A stretch of 33,667 nt of DNA, from contig JAIRQN010000020.1 of the NCBI GenBank assembly GCA_031256445.1, forward strand, positions 1 through 33,667. Reading direction: 5' to 3'. Shown in pieces: positions 1,659 to 32,661 of the stretch. A program made the translations under genes and the position numbers. Under the pieces are notes generated by a model that did no database searches, had not been told where the DNA came from, and saw only the letters and a program-made list of their open reading frames with translations. Source of the DNA: Treponema sp. GTDB taxonomy: Bacteria > Spirochaetota > Spirochaetia > Treponematales > Breznakiellaceae. Position 1 is the stretch's first letter; every line of letters begins with the position of its first letter.

Positions 1659-1755
1659 TTTTGCCGAACTTTAGTTCGCAGGCTAGCCTGAAAAAATGCA
1701 GGACTTGTGAGACAGCTGACCTCGAACCGAAGGTTCGCAGTTGTCGAACAAGTCC
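1655..1755 (-). mobile_element. Family-1 palindromic MITE-like element, copy A (right end missing or degenerate)
   Basis: Hairpin H1 spans 1701-1755, with outer arms GGACTTG/CAAGTCC, inner arms related to ACAACT/AGCTGT, and a tip made of the 15-mer CGAACCGAAGGTTCG at 1723-1737. Hairpin H2 spans 1655-1699 (arms GCATTTTT/AAAAATGC) and contains two further palindromes, 1665-1678 and 1679-1690. H1 is the same length (55 bp) and nearly the same sequence as copy B at 12075. The ATTTTTATAA next to H2 also follows H2 in copy C, so the element probably extends a few bases into hsdM. The conserved CAACTCT right end seen in copies C and D is absent. Confidence 0.75.
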
Positions 1756-1787
1756 AATACCCAAAGACGTGATTTTTACCTCAAATG

Positions 1788-4778: not shown

Positions 4779-6068
4779 ATGAAAAGAATCATTGTTCTGG
4801 TTTTGCTGGTATGTTTAACCCTGCCCGTTTTCGCGGGAGGCAAAAAAGATCAGCCAAAAGGACAGGAACAGGTTACCCTGCGGTTCTCATGGTGGGGCAC
4901 CGACGCGCGCCACAAAGCCACGTTAGACGCCATTGCCGCCTTTGAGAAAGCCAATCCAAACATCAAGATTGAAGCTGAATACGGAGCGCAGGACGGCTAC
5001 AACGCGAAGAAAACTACGGAATTCGCGTCAAGGACAGCGCCGGATGTTATGCAGATTGAAACAGGAGCCGGTCCTGAATACTACAGACTGGGAGTAATAA
5101 AAAATCTCTCCCAGCTAAAATCAATCAGCTTCGGCAAATTTGACGCGAATTTCCTTGCCGCAAACGGACAATTCGGTTCCGGCAGCCAATGGACAATCCC
5201 GACAGGAGTAGCCGGCTCCGCGTTGGTTGTAAACAAGACGCTTGCGGACAAACTCGGCATTGATTTCACCAAACCCTATAACTGGGAACAGCTTATCGCA
5301 TGGGGACAGCAGGTGCGCACGGCCGATCCTTCATGTTATCTGTTATCTGTCAATACAAATTACGGAATGGATTTCTTTGTCCGCGCTTACGCCCGTCAGC
5401 TTAACGGTGTGCCCATCATTGATGATGCGAATAAAAAACTCAATATGACAGAAGCGCAGTTTACCCAGTGTTTTGAGTTAATCGACCGTATCTACAAATC
5501 CGGAACCGCGGCTCCTGCCGCCTATAAGGCGCCGTTTGGCGATCAGGATAATAACGATCCCAACTGGATCGCGGGCAAGTATGTCGCCCATGTCGGTTTC
5601 ACATCAAGCGCCGCCAGAATGCAGGCGGCAAATCCCAACGCCGAGTATATTCCCGGACATATGCCGTTACTTGCAAACCGCAAGAGCGACGGTTGGTTCA
5701 ACGACTGCCCTCAGTACATGGGCATTTACGCTGAAAGCAAACATCCCGAAGAAGCCGCCAAATTCCTGGATTTCTTCTTTAACTCAGAAGAAGCCGCCAG
5801 CCTGCTGGGGACTGTCCGCACAGTGCCTCCTACAAAAATGGCGCAGGACATTGTAACCCGCGAGGGCAAGCTCGATAAACTTACAGCCGATGCGACAACG
5901 CTAAGTCTCACCTACAACGGTAAAAGCGACGGCGGATACACCACAGCGAGTGAAGCTCAGGCAATCCTCAGGGACGCATATGAGCAGGTCGCTTTTGGAA
6001 ATGTGACCCCTGCTGCGGCAGCCAGGAATGTTGTCGCACAGCTCAACGATTTTCTTTCCCGGCAATAG
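4779..6068 (+). CDS. ABC transporter sugar-binding protein (family 1 extracellular solute-binding protein)
   Basis: The 429-residue exported protein begins with a signal peptide MKRIIVLVLLVCLTLPVFA followed by GGKKD. There is no lipobox cysteine, so signal peptidase I cleavage is expected. The mature part starts with VTLRFSWWGTDARHKATLDA and AFEKANPNIKIEAEY, the hallmark of cluster-B/CUT1 sugar-binding proteins. It delivers a carbohydrate in the periplasm to the two permeases encoded downstream. The start has a strong AGGAGG Shine-Dalgarno. A pair of stem-loops separates it from the permease genes, an arrangement known from other binding-protein operons to favour higher expression of the binding protein. 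Confidence 0.93.
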   Translation: MKRIIVLVLLVCLTLPVFAGGKKDQPKGQEQVTLRFSWWGTDARHKATLDAIAAFEKANPNIKIEAEYGAQDGYNAKKTTEFASRTAPDVMQIETGAGPEYYRLGVIKNLSQLKSISFGKFDANFLAANGQFGSGSQWTIPTGVAGSALVVNKTLADKLGIDFTKPYNWEQLIAWGQQVRTADPSCYLLSVNTNYGMDFFVRAYARQLNGVPIIDDANKKLNMTEAQFTQCFELIDRIYKSGTAAPAAYKAPFGDQDNNDPNWIAGKYVAHVGFTSSAARMQAANPNAEYIPGHMPLLANRKSDGWFNDCPQYMGIYAESKHPEEAAKFLDFFFNSEEAASLLGTVRTVPPTKMAQDIVTREGKLDKLTADATTLSLTYNGKSDGGYTTASEAQAILRDAYEQVAFGNVTPAAAARNVVAQLNDFLSRQ

Positions 6069-6069
6069 T

Positions 6070-6146
6070 GTCTGTCCGCATAGACAGACTCTAGTCAGTG
6101 TCTTATTGAAAGGGCAGCCGCCAGCAAACTGTCAGGCTGCTCTTTC
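6070..6146 (+). promoter_or_regulatory. Two stem-loops between binding protein and permease genes
   Basis: The first hairpin pairs GTCTGTC (6070-6076) with GACAGAC (6083-6089). The second pairs GAAAGGGCAGCC (6108-6119) with GGCTGCTCTTTC (6135-6146), 12 bp with one mismatch and a 15-nt loop. The sequence after it is AU-rich but has no clear T-run. By analogy with malE-malF-type junctions it may stabilise upstream mRNA or cause partial termination. Confidence 0.55.
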
Positions 6147-9975: not shown

Positions 9976-12057
9976 GTGAGCTATTCAACAGACAATATTA
10001 GAAATATCGCCATTGCCGGTCATGGACAGACAGGTAAAACCACCCTTTTTGAGCGCTTACTCTTTACAGGAGGCGCAATTCAAAGGGCGGAAACCCTGGA
10101 ATCCGGGAAAACTACCAGCGACTACAGTCAGGAAGAAATAGAGCGGAAAATTTCAATACATGCGGCTTTGGGACATATCGAAAAAAACGGTACAAAGATC
10201 AATTTTTTTGATACTCCCGGTTCTTCAGACTTTACAGGCAATGTTATTCTGAGCTTCCGCGCGGCGGAATTCGCGCTTTTGGCGGTTGACGGAAAATCCG
10301 GCGTTCAGATAGAAACTGTCAAGCTCTGGCGGAACCTGGATACAAGCGGAAAGCCAAGAGGCGTTTTCATTACCAAGCTGGATAATGATCAGGCCGATTT
10401 TAACAGGACTTTGGCTGATATAAAAGAAAAATTTAAAGTGGAACCGGCTGCCATTACGCTGCCCATGGGCACAGGCGGCAGTCTTAAAGGCGTAATTGAT
10501 GTTCTGCATGAAAAAGCATATACGATACAGGGCGATGCCCCGGAAAAAGAAGAGGCAATTCCAGCCGAATTAAAAGACGCTGTTGCCTCCGCTCGTGAAA
10601 AATTGATGGAAGCCGCCGCCGAGGGCGATGACAACCTGATGGAAAAATTTATCGAAAACGGCTCCCTTTCCCCCGAAGAAATAAAAACCGGTCTTGTTAA
10701 AGCGCTTGCCGAAAATAAAATCGTACCGGCTTTCGCTGGCTCCCCGCTTAACAATTGCGGCATAATTCCGTTAATCGACTTTATCATAGACGCGGCGCCC
10801 AACCCGCGCACGGCTAAAGATACAATGATTGACGGAGAAGGCAAAGAGACGCAAATTTCTTTCGATCCGGATAAGCCGATGTCCGCGCTGGTAATAAAAA
10901 CGACATACGATCAGTTTTCGGGAAAACTGTCATGGATAAAGGTTATTACCGGCAAACTTACAGCGGATTCAGAGGCGGTTAATATTTCAGAAAACAAAAA
11001 GGAAAGGGTCAGCAAACTGTACACCTGCCAGGGTAAAAAACTGGAAGAAGTAAAAGAACTGTTCGCGGGCGATGCGGGCATTATTACAAAATCAGCCACT
11101 CTGAAAACAAATGATACATTGGCTGTAATAGATACCGGCAGCAGCTTTATGCCGCTGCGCCTGCCTGAGCCGGTTCACTCTGTGGCGGTAAACGCGGTTG
11201 CGAAAAAAGATGATGACAAACTCGGCGAATTTCTTGTACGCGCGGCGGAAGAAGATAAAACATTCCGCTTCCATTACAATGGCGAGACAAAGGAATCGGT
11301 AATTTCCGGCATGGGCGAACTGCAGATTAATATTATACTGGATAAAATAAAAAACAATCAGAAGATCGAAGTTGAAACCCGCATTCCCAAGATTGCCTAC
11401 CGCGAAACCATCACAAAGAAATCCGGCGCCGAATATACGCATAAAAAACAGACAGGCGGTCATGGACAGTATGGAAAGGTAGTGATAGAAATCGCGCCTC
11501 TTGCGCGCGGCGAAGGATACCAGTTTATTAACGCCATCTTCGGCGGGGCAATTCCAAAGAACTACATTCCCGGCGTTGAAAAGGGCATTATCGAAGGAAT
11601 GGTGCACGGCTCCATGGCGAGTTATCCCGTAGTTGACGTAGAAGTAAAAATCGTGGACGGTAAATTCCATCCGGTAGATTCAAATGAGCTCTCGTTCAAG
11701 CTCGCCGCGCGCAACGCCTTCCGCGAAGCCATGAAGCAGGCAAACCCGACATTGCTTGAACCTATCATGAACCTTACTGTCTTTATCGAAGAAAAATACC
11801 TTGGCGATGTAATGAGCGACCTGTCCGGGAAACGAGGAAAGATACTCGGGCAGGATTCGGCAGGCGGCATCGCGGAAGTACGCGCCGAGGTTCCGATGTC
11901 GGAACTGCTTCGCTACTCGATTGACCTGCGCTCAATTACTTCGGGAACCGGCTCTTTCAATGTTGACTTCAGTCATTACGCGCCAATATCCGGCCGCATA
12001 GCCGACGATGTTATCAAAGCGCGCGCGGAGTTCAAGATTCAGGAAGCTGACGAATAG
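9976..12057 (+). CDS. Elongation factor G-like GTPase (non-canonical EF-G paralogue)
   Basis: The 693-residue protein has the full EF-G layout: a G domain with P-loop GHGQTGKT (15-22) and DTPG (79-82), then domains II-V including HKKQTGGHGQYGKVVIE in domain IV and YLGDVMSDLSGKRGKI in domain V. Canonical translocases carry AHIDAGKT in G1 and NKMD in G4; here G1 is GHGQTGKT and G4 reads TKLD (133-136). It therefore belongs to the divergent EF-G-like group that coexists with a genuine FusA, not the housekeeping translocase. Spirochaetes are known to divide translocation and ribosome recycling between EF-G paralogues, but whether this protein does either is unknown. It starts at a GTG after AAGGAG and is monocistronic, followed by a family-1 element. 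Confidence 0.93.
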   Translation: MSYSTDNIRNIAIAGHGQTGKTTLFERLLFTGGAIQRAETLESGKTTSDYSQEEIERKISIHAALGHIEKNGTKINFFDTPGSSDFTGNVILSFRAAEFALLAVDGKSGVQIETVKLWRNLDTSGKPRGVFITKLDNDQADFNRTLADIKEKFKVEPAAITLPMGTGGSLKGVIDVLHEKAYTIQGDAPEKEEAIPAELKDAVASAREKLMEAAAEGDDNLMEKFIENGSLSPEEIKTGLVKALAENKIVPAFAGSPLNNCGIIPLIDFIIDAAPNPRTAKDTMIDGEGKETQISFDPDKPMSALVIKTTYDQFSGKLSWIKVITGKLTADSEAVNISENKKERVSKLYTCQGKKLEEVKELFAGDAGIITKSATLKTNDTLAVIDTGSSFMPLRLPEPVHSVAVNAVAKKDDDKLGEFLVRAAEEDKTFRFHYNGETKESVISGMGELQINIILDKIKNNQKIEVETRIPKIAYRETITKKSGAEYTHKKQTGGHGQYGKVVIEIAPLARGEGYQFINAIFGGAIPKNYIPGVEKGIIEGMVHGSMASYPVVDVEVKIVDGKFHPVDSNELSFKLAARNAFREAMKQANPTLLEPIMNLTVFIEEKYLGDVMSDLSGKRGKILGQDSAGGIAEVRAEVPMSELLRYSIDLRSITSGTGSFNVDFSHYAPISGRIADDVIKARAEFKIQEADE

Positions 12058-12074
12058 CGGATAGTTCGTTAATT

Positions 12075-12145
12075 GGACTTGTTCGATAACTGCGAACCTT
12101 CGGTTCGATGTCAGTTGTCTCACAAGTCCTGCATTTTTTCAGGCT
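12075..12145 (+). mobile_element. Family-1 palindromic element, copy B (partial)
   Basis: Hairpin H1 occupies 12075-12129, with GGACTTG/CAAGTCC outer arms and CGAACCTTCGGTTCG at 12093-12107. It is followed by TGCATTTTTTCAGGCT, also present in copy A. The rest of H2 and the CAACTCT right end are missing or unrecognisable. It sits 18 bp after the EF-G-like stop and before the phosphoesterase gene. It lacks a T-run, so I do not call it a terminator, although the hairpin could protect the 3' end of the upstream mRNA. Confidence 0.75.
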
Positions 12146-21345: not shown

Positions 21346-21667
21346 TTAAAACCAATTAATAATAATATCAATTGACCCAATTATAGCAAAAACACTGGCT
21401 GCCATTCCAGCTATTGCCAATGCCTTTATAAAGGGATGCTCCGGCTTTGCCATAACTTTCAACATTTTCTCCAGTGTATCATTTATATTAGAGTTGTTCG
21501 ATAACCTCAGTTATAGAACCAAACGAAGTTTGAAACTTCCTTATAAAAATGGCATTTTCGCAGTCTTCAGACGAGAAAATGCTGGACTTGTGAGACAACT
21601 AACCCGAACCAAAGGTTCGCAGTTGCCGAACAAGTCCATTATCTAATTTATCTGCGATTTTTGCCAT
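21346..21667 (-). pseudogene. Small membrane protein gene split by family-1 element C
   Basis: The 5' part starts at 21667 after a strong GGGAGGAG and reads MAKIADKLDN, then enters the element and meets a TAG. The 3' part resumes after the element as NDTLEKMLKVMAKPEHPFIK followed by a hydrophobic helix and ends IIINWF at 21346. Removing the 148-bp element plus one 3-bp AAT joins ...KLDN to INDTLEK... in frame and gives a clean 56-residue protein with one transmembrane helix. As it stands the gene makes only a 22-residue peptide. It lies between a lipoprotein gene and another small membrane protein gene. Confidence 0.8.
21490..21637 (-). mobile_element. Family-1 MITE-like element, copy C (complete, 148 bp, AAT duplication)
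   Basis: In the gene's orientation the element starts GGACTTGTTCG and ends CGAACAACTCT, imperfect terminal inverted repeats of about 16 bp. It is bordered by AAT on both sides. Inside are H1 (21584-21637, tip CGAACCAAAGGTTCG at 21605-21619), H2 with GCATTTTC/GAAAATGC arms, a 15-bp palindrome at 21525-21539, and the terminal hairpin near 21490-21518. It encodes no protein, so any transposition would need a transposase supplied elsewhere. Confidence 0.8.
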
Positions 21668-21686
21668 AGAATTCACTCCTCCCGGT

Positions 21687-28994: not shown

Positions 28995-30143
28995 ATGAAA
29001 AGATTTAATCTAAGTGGTGCTGCCAGCCTCTGGCTGCTAGCAGCAATCATCGCAATTACCGCAATGGCTTTTACAGCTTGCAGTAAAAAAAGCGAGCGAA
29101 CCGAAGGTTCGACACAACAGCAAACAGCCGCTGCACCCGTCAACCCGCACCCTGAAATCCTGAACGGAGATTTTTCCGCTTTTGCCGGAATTTGGGCAGC
29201 CGGTAATGGTGACAAAAGACAACTCAGAGCTGATGGATTTTACAGTGACGGTTCTTACGGAGATCATGGTATTAAACCTTACCGTTTCGATATTAACGGC
29301 AACGGTGCAAATATGCATTATTCATGGATGATATTGGACGGCATGGATATAAATCTGTATCCTGCCGGAGCTGATATAATAACCGAGGATAATCAGGTTA
29401 TTCAATCGGATACAACAAAAGCCCGTATTACAATGTATCCCAAATCAAGCGATGATATATTTTATCTTGTCGATGCCGGCTATTCTGGTACTTATGTAAA
29501 CCCTTACGCATTAATAATGAACAGTGATTTTTCAGCTTTTGCCGGAAGATGGGTAAACGATCATGGCGGCGGCTCAGTAGAGCTGACACCGGATGGACTT
29601 CTTCGCGACATTGGTTATGGTATATCCAATTTAAGAAGAATCGGCAACGCTTATTCATGGGATTTATCTACTGGAGTCGTTAGTATGCCGGTATTTCTGT
29701 TTCCTGCCGGAGTGGAAGTAACAGACGAAGATAACCGGCGTGTTCAAACCGATACAACAAAAGACCGTATTGCTATCGACAGACGCTATAGTAATCAAGT
29801 CTATTACCGGCAAGGCGAAGCGCAAGTCGCGCTTGACCATGAGGAACTGCGCGCCGGATCATCAGTAACAGGAGTTGTAGGCGGAGACTGGAAAGAGCGT
29901 TATAACATAAGATCAGTTGATACATTCTATATATCATTGGTAATCGAAAGCGAAGTTGAAATATTGCTGGATGTTTATAACGGTCAGCAGTTTATTAAAT
30001 CAAGCATTGACGACAGCGGTGAATATCATTCAAGAATTGAAATCGCGGCACAGCCCAATACCGTCTATCTTTTGGAAGTATCATCTTATGTCCGCGATGT
30101 AACAGAAGCCAAATTTCGAATATCGGCGCATTTAAGTCAATAA
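28995..30143 (+). CDS. Lipoprotein with two repeat units and a C-terminal beta domain
   Basis: The 382-residue lipoprotein has lipobox MAFTAC and a linker SERTEGSTQ encoded by the family-1 core palindrome. Two copies of the locus repeat follow (ILNGDFSAFAGIWAAG and MNSDFSAFAGRWVND). After about residue 277 there is a domain beginning ELRAGSSVTGVVGGDWKERY and ending AKFRISAHLSQ, resembling bacterial pre-peptidase C-terminal-like beta sandwiches. The start follows AAAGGAG. The role is unknown; membrane anchoring and the repeat suggest a surface display or binding protein. Confidence 0.72.
   Translation: MKRFNLSGAASLWLLAAIIAITAMAFTACSKKSERTEGSTQQQTAAAPVNPHPEILNGDFSAFAGIWAAGNGDKRQLRADGFYSDGSYGDHGIKPYRFDINGNGANMHYSWMILDGMDINLYPAGADIITEDNQVIQSDTTKARITMYPKSSDDIFYLVDAGYSGTYVNPYALIMNSDFSAFAGRWVNDHGGGSVELTPDGLLRDIGYGISNLRRIGNAYSWDLSTGVVSMPVFLFPAGVEVTDEDNRRVQTDTTKDRIAIDRRYSNQVYYRQGEAQVALDHEELRAGSSVTGVVGGDWKERYNIRSVDTFYISLVIESEVEILLDVYNGQQFIKSSIDDSGEYHSRIEIAAQPNTVYLLEVSSYVRDVTEAKFRISAHLSQ
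29097..29111. repeat. Family-1 core palindrome in frame within a lipoprotein gene
   Basis: CGAACCGAAGGTTCG is read as part of SERTEGST, immediately after the lipobox and KKSE. The paralogue at 25530 lacks these residues (KKSETQTAA), so the segment behaves as an in-frame insertion of about 18 bp. Identical 15-mers are at 1723, 12093, 30276 and 31312. Confidence 0.75.
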
Positions 30144-30158
30144 AAATTTAAGTCAATA
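30130..30158 (+). repeat. Short tandem duplication at the lipoprotein stop codon
   Basis: ATTTAAGTCAATA occurs at 30130-30142 and 30146-30158, a 16-bp period. The first copy contains the stop codon of the 28995 gene, and the second ends where the solo family-1 element begins. Confidence 0.6.
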
Positions 30159-30176
30159 GAGTTGTTCGACAACTTT
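30158..30176 (+). mobile_element. Solo 19-bp family-1 element (ends only) flanked by AAT
   Basis: AGAGTTGTTCGACAACTTT combines the element's terminal sequences into one small hairpin (AGTTGT-TCG-ACAACT). AAT borders it on both sides (30155-30157 and 30177-30179), as in copies C and D. It looks like an internal-deletion derivative of the larger element. Confidence 0.6.
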
Positions 30177-30197
30177 AATAATAAAAGGAGAAATGAA

Positions 30198-31295
30198 ATG
30201 AAAAGATTTATTCTATTAGTTGCTATCATTGCAGTAATCGCAATGGCTTTCACAGCCTGCACAAAAAAAAGCGAGCGAACCGAAGGTTCGACACAATCGC
30301 AAACAGCCAACCCACACCCTGAAATCCTGAACGAAGATTTATCCGCTTTCGCCGGGATATGGGCAAGCGAGCAGGGCGAAGTCAGCGTGCTGACTTCAGA
30401 CGGACTCTTTGGCGGCGGATATTCGGCTTTCAATTTCAGAAAGGACGATGATATTTACGGATGGGATGTTGCTATGGGTCAGGATTCCACAACAGTATGG
30501 TTATATCCTGTTGGAATAGAAGTTACAGGACGCAGAACAGATACATCAAAAGTCCGTATCTCCGGAATGAGCAATGGAATATTTTACCGCGAAGGAGAAA
30601 TATCGCTTCCCGTTCCGGTTGATCTTAAACCCGGATCATTCATTGACGCATACAGCGAAAAAGATCATATGTACTGGTATGCCGTCACAATTACCGAAGG
30701 AAATCGTCTTGTAGTAGAGACGGACACCTGGAATGTATATTTGACTGCTTACAATCAAAATTATAAAGTTATCGCTAAGGATGATTCTCTTGATGATATT
30801 ACCGCGGACGCCCCTAACCCGTGTATAACAATTATAATTAATAATGAACGTGAATTCGGTACTTATCTCTTCAGTGCATGGAGTCATAATAGTTCAGGTA
30901 ATTACCGCATTATGGCAAGCAATAAAGCCGCTTCACAATCAAAAGTGTGGGAACCAGCCGAGTTGACAGGGGAATGGCATTCCAGATCAATTACCGGCAG
31001 TTGTCACGGACAGGAGCATTATATCTTTACCGCAGACGGCTATTATAGAAAAGGCGATTTATATCAAAAGCACGACGGCACATGGAGTTTGGCAAGAGAC
31101 GCCGCAACGGGTAAATATCACTTAACGCTTCAATATAAACAATTCATTGATTTTGAATCCGGCTGGACGCCTAATGATTTTACTGCATATGGGGAGTATG
31201 AAACAATCGATCCCAATAATATCGACTTGTTATTGCCCGGCACAGGTTGGACTGAATTAACCCGTTGCCATAATCCCGGCTGGTCGGCTCAATAG
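30198..31295 (+). CDS. Lipoprotein with one repeat unit, a PPC-like domain and a C-terminal lipocalin-like domain
   Basis: The start is placed at 30198 (MKRFILL) after AAAGGAG; the longer frame from 30162 translates the element and leader. The 365-residue product has lipobox MAFTAC, the palindrome-encoded SERTEGSTQ, one locus repeat (ILNEDLSAFAGIWASEQGE), a middle domain (LKPGSFIDAYSEKDHMYWYA to GNYRIMAS) like pre-peptidase C-terminal domains, and a last domain (LTGEWHSRSI to GWTELTRC) resembling lipocalin-like beta barrels. The TAG stop overlaps the first bases of element copy D, so that insertion defines the gene's 3' end. Confidence 0.72.
   Translation: MKRFILLVAIIAVIAMAFTACTKKSERTEGSTQSQTANPHPEILNEDLSAFAGIWASEQGEVSVLTSDGLFGGGYSAFNFRKDDDIYGWDVAMGQDSTTVWLYPVGIEVTGRRTDTSKVRISGMSNGIFYREGEISLPVPVDLKPGSFIDAYSEKDHMYWYAVTITEGNRLVVETDTWNVYLTAYNQNYKVIAKDDSLDDITADAPNPCITIIINNEREFGTYLFSAWSHNSSGNYRIMASNKAASQSKVWEPAELTGEWHSRSITGSCHGQEHYIFTADGYYRKGDLYQKHDGTWSLARDAATGKYHLTLQYKQFIDFESGWTPNDFTAYGEYETIDPNNIDLLLPGTGWTELTRCHNPGWSAQ
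30276..30290. repeat. Family-1 core palindrome in frame within the second lipoprotein
   Basis: The same CGAACCGAAGGTTCG in the same frame (SERTEGST) and at the same position after the lipobox as at 29097. The flanking codons match too, so it may have spread by duplication or gene conversion of the 5' end rather than by independent insertion. Confidence 0.75.
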
Positions 31296-31428
31296 ACTTG
31301 TTCGACAACAGCGAACCTTCGGTTCGAGTTAGTTGTCTCACATGTCTTGCAATTTTCTGGGCTAAAGCCCCAAAAATTGCCTTTTTTTAGCGGTAGTTGT
31401 TCAATAACTGAAGTTATCGAACAACTCT
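31294..31428 (+). mobile_element. Family-1 MITE-like element, copy D (complete, 135 bp, AAT flanks)
   Basis: It starts AGACTTGTTCG and ends CGAACAACTCT, with AAT at 31291-31293 and 31429-31431. H1 is 31294-31347 with tip CGAACCTTCGGTTCG (31312-31326); its outer pair is A-T where other copies have G-C, a compensatory change. H2 uses GCAATTTT/AAAATTGC arms and the right hairpin is AGTTGTTCAATAACT/GTTATCGAACAACT. It fills most of the 181-bp gap before the next lipoprotein. Confidence 0.8.
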
Positions 31429-31476: not shown

Positions 31477-32661
31477 ATGAATAGGTGTTTTTTAACAACG
31501 ATCACAATCATCGCAATTACAGCAATGGCTTTCACAGCCTGCAATCGAGGAAGCGGTTCAAGCAATCAAGCAGGTGCTTTTGACGCCGTAAAAACAGCGC
31601 AAGCGGAAAACGCTGGTTCCTCAAATTACGAAGAGCAAAATGATCTTCACGAATATAGTTCACACCAGAAAATTGTACCCGCTTTCGCGGGATATTATGT
31701 AAATGATTCAGGTAATAGTATACATCTTGAACCAGGCGGAACCTTTGTCATGCGGCAGGATGGCAATTCATGGGAGAATGAAATTGTCGGCGTTTTCTTA
31801 AATGTGAATAATCCAGGCAGCGGCAATTATTTTCATTGGGCACATCCAGCCGGAGATTTCGGAATATACCTTGTTCCTGCCGGTGTTGATATAATAATGC
31901 ATGGATCGATTTTACCGACAGATAAAACAAAAATCCGTTTGATAACCGAAGATCTTCATTCTGTGCCTGTTGTGTATTACCAAACAGGAGCGTCATCGCA
32001 AGGAGCATACAACTATTCAAAAATCCTCGCGGGCGATTTATCCGATTTTACGGGAACATGGGTGAACGGGCAAGGCGAAAAAGCGCGCATTACGGCGGAC
32101 GGAGTCTTACAGCATAACATTCTTGCCGGTGGAATTCGCGCTTCCGATTTCAGTAAGACAGACGGCGCAAACACAACTTATTCATGGTGGGTATCCCAGA
32201 CAGGCGATGGTTTTGGCGTAAATCTGCATCCTGCCGGAACTGAGGTATTGGATTATTATGGTCAACCCATTCAAACAGATAAAACAAAAGTCCGTATTAC
32301 CATTCAATCAGTTAGCAGAAGCGATGAAATCTATTACCGTGAAGGGGAACTGCCTCCGGTTACAGTAAACAATGATTTGGTTCTTGGATCATGGATGTTT
32401 AAAAGCGGGAGAAATGTTTATTTCTTTGGGCAAGCTCCTTCAATAGATTTCCTGACTGACAAAACGGTAAATGTTTATGAACAAGGCGATCAATACTTGC
32501 GTTTAGCCCGCTCCGGCATTTGGGGCTATACTCCAGAAGGTCGCTTGTTTGTTGAGTATGACTGGAATACTTATTACTTTTTATTCAGTTCAGACTTGGA
32601 GAATCTAATCATCATAGACTCTGACGGGAACAGGGGCGTCTTTGGCAAGGTTTATGGGTAA
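31477..32661 (+). CDS. Lipoprotein with two divergent repeat units and a C-terminal domain
   Basis: The 394-residue lipoprotein has the shared signal peptide ending MAFTAC, then CNRGSGSSNQ and a longer linker without the SERTEGST insert. The first repeat unit is divergent (VPAFAGYYVNDSGNSIHLE) and the second typical (ILAGDLSDFTGTWVNGQGEK). A final domain of about 100 residues (LVLGSWMFKSGRNVYFFGQ to GNRGVFGKVYG) resembles lipocalin-type stress or binding domains. The ATG at 31477 follows AGAGG. Function unknown. Confidence 0.72.
   Translation: MNRCFLTTITIIAITAMAFTACNRGSGSSNQAGAFDAVKTAQAENAGSSNYEEQNDLHEYSSHQKIVPAFAGYYVNDSGNSIHLEPGGTFVMRQDGNSWENEIVGVFLNVNNPGSGNYFHWAHPAGDFGIYLVPAGVDIIMHGSILPTDKTKIRLITEDLHSVPVVYYQTGASSQGAYNYSKILAGDLSDFTGTWVNGQGEKARITADGVLQHNILAGGIRASDFSKTDGANTTYSWWVSQTGDGFGVNLHPAGTEVLDYYGQPIQTDKTKVRITIQSVSRSDEIYYREGELPPVTVNNDLVLGSWMFKSGRNVYFFGQAPSIDFLTDKTVNVYEQGDQYLRLARSGIWGYTPEGRLFVEYDWNTYYFLFSSDLENLIIIDSDGNRGVFGKVYG

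Follow-up and report, generated by a model that had tools for sequence, protein, structure and literature searches.

A conserved small gene of Treponema sp. is interrupted by a 148-bp element that was inserted with a 3-bp target duplication. The element is very probably a MITE with imperfect terminal inverted repeats and a 3-bp ANT target duplication, mobilised most likely in trans by an IS5-family transposase. It belongs to a multicopy family with one target, and in related genomes an IS5-type transposase gene lies beside ends that match those of the family.

The broken gene is read on the minus strand of the window (the whole 33,667-nucleotide stretch of DNA that was analysed). A ribosome-binding site recognised by its sequence, GGGAGGAG (21676..21683, minus strand), precedes the 5' part (21638..21667, minus strand; ATG at 21667-21665), which encodes MAKIADKLDN in the codons ATG GCA AAA ATC GCA GAT AAA TTA GAT AAT and then runs into the element, GGACTTGTTCGG...CGAACAACTCT (21490..21637, minus strand). 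The 3' part (21346..21489, minus strand) resumes with AAT ATA AAT GAT ACA CTG GAG and continues as (N)INDTLEK...IINWF to a stop at 21348-21346. The target-site duplication AAT stands before the element in minus-strand order at 21638..21640 and after it at 21487..21489, both on the minus strand, the latter being the first AAT of the 3' part; the junction in the window thus reads GATAAT, the 148 bp, and AATATAAAT. Removal of the 148 bp and one AAT (151 bp) restores a frame of 56 codons, and the coordinates and frame arithmetic given in the preliminary description are correct. The element has no protein-coding gene of its own, and the frame of the interrupted gene meets a stop after 12 codons within it. 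The insertion cuts the 56-aa protein off after residue 10, since translation would end about 12 codons into the element, and most likely leaves the gene inactive. The membrane segment 3' of the insertion stays open, however, and a downstream ATG (MLKVMAKPEH...) may give a shorter product. Used as a query against the same genome, the 56-residue protein did not reveal any further copy of the gene, and homologues of the protein matched nothing significantly in Pfam, NCBIfam or PHROGs, the best match being a weak one to a PHROG annotated 'hemolysin' (E 0.013). Among 22 copies of the element in this genome, considering only frames that span a copy, there was no clear case of another split gene.

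The empty site is directly visible in relatives. When the 56-residue protein was used as a query against 60 related genomes, full-length unbroken homologues were found in eight, all of the same genus. Seven of these (L062-L068) keep the gene neighbourhood around an intact gene, with a 278-aa protein on one side and a 169-aa protein and a 512-aa dehydroquinase/shikimate dehydrogenase on the other; the further intact homologue is L069. The junction is GATAATATAAA(T/C) in six of the seven syntenic loci, with GATAATATAAAT or GATAATATAAAC as the junction DNA, and reads CATAATATAAAC in L068 and GACAATATCAAT in L069. Set against the duplicated AAT of the window, these intact junctions show that the focal element was inserted here and duplicated 3 bp of its target. 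The preliminary description had proposed just this, and had looked to relatives for an uninterrupted 56-aa homologue at the locus, which the seven syntenic genomes provide; far from all carrying the 148 bp, the relatives are without the insert, and their homologues run across the junction rather than stop at it. This comparison of empty and filled sites was made for the focal copy only.

The imperfect terminal inverted repeats noted in the preliminary description, GGACTTGTTCGG and AGAGTTGTTCGA, agree at RGASTTGTTCG, and the further copies with the same ends for which it suggested a search are numerous and flanked by ANT direct repeats. At an E-value of 0.01 or lower, 47 stretches of the genome of the window (2.79 Mb in 107 contigs, 97.7% complete) match the element; the end motifs, for which as many as two mismatches were tolerated, match 71 + 71 times, as compared with 16 + 21 for a reversed control pattern, and at least 21 copies of about 95-150 bp carry both ends. 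Flanks were tested on copies located by their ends alone. Identical 3-bp flanks were found in 18 of the 21 both-end copies (shuffled mean 6.8, maximum 14), a proportion that none of 5000 shuffles reached, and in 78 of 110 copies over all genomes (shuffled mean 34, maximum 51). In the genome of the window, ANT occupies 19 of 21 left and 20 of 21 right flanks, N being A, T, C or G (AAT, ATT, ACT, AGT), and the duplication in these copies is never longer than 3 bp. The copy closest to the focal element is 95% identical over nearly its whole length and some copies of hairpin A (see below) reach 97-98%, so that the spread of the family dates from fairly recent times.

The search of the same genome also located a second copy in the window, of 135 bp and flanked by AAT on both sides (31294..31428, plus strand), and two partial copies (1675..1759, minus strand; 12053..12140, plus strand). 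Two proteins with DUF6287 matches (28995-30143 and 31477-32661) flank a lipoprotein-like ORF (30162-31295) that resembles them, and a MITE copy lies between this ORF and the second protein. Matches to the family occur in 24 genomes of the genus, this one included, and were absent from 23 genomes outside it. An exact-pattern scan of GTDB genomes matched only Treponema or Spirochaetes MAGs (TD114a_bin7, which had the most, Co333_bin15, Emb289P1bin65, Co191P3bin16 and Th196P1bin3), whose sample names we take to denote termite-gut metagenomes. MITE candidates are by far most numerous in one related genome, G024, with 451. Copies at contig ends in G024 and G029 were considered as parts of an autonomous element and rejected, since they are MITE copies that coincide with breaks in the assembly; a search for a third end type, GGTGTCCGAAAAG, gave only one pair.

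The preliminary description saw a MITE-like palindromic element. The MITE assignment stands, while the single palindrome gives way to three hairpins in series, the element folding in this manner and not end to end. Hairpin A (54 bp; 21584..21637, minus strand) is formed by pairing of the terminal repeat GGACTTGT.. and an inverted copy of itself, ..ACAAGTCC, and hairpin B (21490..21538, minus strand) terminates in the repeat CGAACAACTCT, both being predicted by folding and covariation. Between them lies a core hairpin, GCATTTTC..GAAAATGC (21552..21582, minus strand), predicted by covariation. The focal copy corresponds to a 120-bp form with extra stretches, namely a 16-bp palindromic tip of hairpin A, GCGAACCTTTGGTTCG, that shorter copies are missing, and 14 nt in hairpin B that most copies do not have. 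As single-stranded DNA it folds at -33 kcal/mol (z -7.2) and as RNA at -52.7 (z -4.9), and none of 200 dinucleotide shuffles folded as well in either case. Across 33 full-length copies with target duplications, 96.8% of the cells in the three predicted hairpins are paired and both sides have changed in 15 of 37 pairs; doubly changed cells number 81, compared with 23.5 in shuffles, a signal that is lost when partners are slid, and the covariation score is 0.219 as against 0.101 for shuffles. In the core, for example, the arms GCATTTT/AAAATGC become GCGGTTTT/AAAACCGC and GCAATTTT/AAATTGC. The aligned copies thus show that the predicted hairpin arms stay complementary, and either selection or palindrome correction by template switching in replication may be the source. 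The three hairpins presumably matter for transposition or for a transcript.

Several lines of evidence concern the enzyme. The profiles DDE_Tnp_1 (PF01609) and DDE_Tnp_4 (PF13359) found nothing in the genome of the window, so that no IS5-type transposase was detected in this assembly. Multicopy ISs are often lost from assemblies of many contigs, and since this one has 107, the missing transposase may reflect the assembly. DDE_Tnp_1 was found in 17 of 40 genomes of the genus, and MITE-like ends accompany it at three loci, L149 (G014), L151 (G003) and L168 (G024); the other DDE_Tnp_1 loci had no matching ends and were set aside as mobilisers. As a query, the read-through of the broken L149 copy retrieved related proteins only from G014, G003, G009, G024 and G029, and DDE_Tnp_4 matches occur in G014, G003, G024, G009 and G026. 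The assembled copies of the transposase are all fragments or broken, and NF033581, their best family, gave 113.5 bits with the read-through from G014 and 94.9 with a 190-aa fragment from G024, neither of which attains its curated cut-off of 140. The DDE_Tnp_4 scores of the same two (74.7 and 49.0) are above the cut-off, as is the DDE_Tnp_1 score. From its sequence we therefore provisionally assign the transposase of the relatives to the IS5 family; the ANT target is suggestive of the ISL2 group. The ISL2-group elements described in Amoebophilus have transposases of 275 aa, and their ends measure about 20 bp (PMC3196728).

The IS5-family element of the relatives ends in AGACTTGTTYRAYAACC beside ANT, in agreement with the MITE termini, the matched stretch being only about 16 bp. 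In G024, where several contigs end at a copy of the transposase gene, GGTTATTAAACAAGTCT or GGTTGTCGAACAAGTCT follows within a few bases of the transposase stop and is itself followed by AAT or ATT at nine of nine right ends (also read as ..AAACAAGTCT or ..GAACAAGTCT, then AAT or ATT). The right end at L168, GGTTGTCGAACAAGTCT and then ATT, equals the MITE terminus over about 16 bp, and a left end at L181, also in G024, reads CTATT followed directly by AGACTTGTTTAATAACC. A complete uninterrupted autonomous element was not assembled in any of the relatives. We propose that an IS5-family transposase encoded by a same-ended IS of related Treponema would cut and insert the MITE in trans. Such a source element would have the ends AGACTTGTTCGACAACC and ANT flanks, and may have been lost from the genome of the window, left unassembled or never present there. 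An IS5-family transposase probably moved the focal copy as well.

Other mobilisers can be imagined. It is unlikely that a different, non-IS5 DDE transposase shares the ANT target and that the IS5 ends are coincidental or captured: the failure to find an IS5 transposase in the same genome would fit, and a second family with the same interior (see below) does show that ends can be exchanged, but the identity of the L168 right end to the MITE terminus over 16 bp, at the same ANT target, speaks against it. The layout of inverted-order hairpins at both ends, together with the high copy number, recalls REP/REPIN-like elements, in which a Y1 (RAYT, IS200/IS605-type) transposase moves pairs of inverted hairpins in the form of single-stranded DNA. 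For a Y1 mechanism, however, one expects neither true terminal inverted repeats nor a target duplication of 3 bp, and the termini agree with an IS5-family element, so that we judge this origin very unlikely. We give almost no credence to an ancestral insert precisely excised in the relatives, or to a gene split by design and rejoined by translational bypass or intron-like removal. The exactness of the frame restoration would suit either, yet the same element occupies dozens of unrelated sites with target duplications of their own, the 151 bp to be removed contain one target copy, as insertion predicts, and no Rfam RNA family matches at the element, the sole match in the window being a tRNA.

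The RUP and BOX repeats of Streptococcus pneumoniae are palindromic, modular mobile repeats of about 100 bp that depend on IS transposases, RUP having a TA duplication and an IS630-type transposase. The Treponema MITE resembles them by description in being palindromic, modular and mobile. With REPINs and RAYT it has the inverted hairpin pair and high copy number in common, but a target duplication, here of 3 bp, is unexpected in those systems. The IS5 family offers the transposase match (NF033581, DDE_Tnp_4, DDE_Tnp_1), ends of 16-17 bp and the 3-bp ANT duplication, although the MITE has no transposase gene and the transposase of the relatives falls below the NF033581 cut-off. Bacterial MITEs are likewise short and non-coding, with terminal inverted repeats, a target duplication, many copies and IS-like ends (PMC10969869); here, in contrast, each terminal arm is duplicated inside, giving three hairpins in series, and the host is a Treponema. 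The family was undescribed in the literature on MITEs in Treponema, spirochaetes and Leptospira, a search whose coverage largely excluded subscription journals and in which only the IS605-related stem loops of Borrelia surfaced for spirochaetes (PMC2775950, PMC2674063). The MITE class is well known, and this is likely the first description of the family. It provides a clean pair of empty and filled sites that documents how a MITE broke a conserved gene of an uncultured lineage; its insertions are also numerous within the genus, which comprises about 40 genomes.

Since a sister family has the same interior with other ends and another target, the system lends itself to studying how non-autonomous elements switch the enzyme on which they depend, and whether there is a reason for the retention of the hairpin core. 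In G029, matches to the first family cover the core only. The second family has the same three-hairpin plan, with ends GTGTCTGTCC / GGACAGACTC (GWGTCTGTCC) and flanks TANNTA (copies among L124-L126, L335, L344, L347, L359 and L367-L374); identical 6-bp flanks occur in 15 of the 23 copies bordered by TA at each end, as compared with a mean of 4.3 and a maximum of 11 in 5000 shuffles. Its ends match 175 times in G029 and 10 times in the genome of the window (control 1). One copy in the latter genome, L359, aligns with first-family copies there in the hairpin A loop, the core and the AAGGTAGT junction, with local scores of 52-93 against a shuffled maximum of 25. All four terminal arms differ between the families, the AAGGWAGT junction and the core hairpin being common to both. 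With interiors that align and terminal arms that do not, the families share an interior origin but obey different target rules, ANT with a 3-bp duplication in the first and TANNTA with a 6-bp duplication in the second. A single MITE lineage might have switched its mobilising transposase, its ends being replaced coordinately around a kept, perhaps functional, core, a scenario to which we give somewhat less than even odds. Near the DDE_Tnp_1 genes of G029 there were no matching second-family ends, except for one solitary hairpin. A very short second-family piece, TA-GTGTCTGTCCGCATAGACAGACTC-TA, lies at 6066-6093 of the window, where its first bases supply the stop codon of an ORF at 4779-6068.

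Smaller pieces were also seen. Solitary hairpins of 36-54 bp with first-family ends and identical 3-bp flanks occur at L092:1480-1516, L103:337-372, L043:1502-1555 and L224:6711-6764, and in L026 and L011; short pairs as a class were not above chance for identical flanks (12 of 158, shuffled mean 18). The solitary hairpins could be either the smallest mobile forms or products of internal deletion, and deletion between the repeated arms would explain the palindromes of 36-37 bp. At 30158-30176 of the window, upstream of a lipoprotein-like ORF, a 19-bp palindrome, AGAGTTGTTCGACAACTTT, has AAT on both sides; it may be what a deletion left of a MITE of this family. The tips of many MITE hairpins contain short palindromes, GCGAACCTTCGGTTCGC and CGGACTTTAGTCCG among them, that are also present inside a gene (sites at 30275-30291 of the window and in L140), much as separate small insertions would be.
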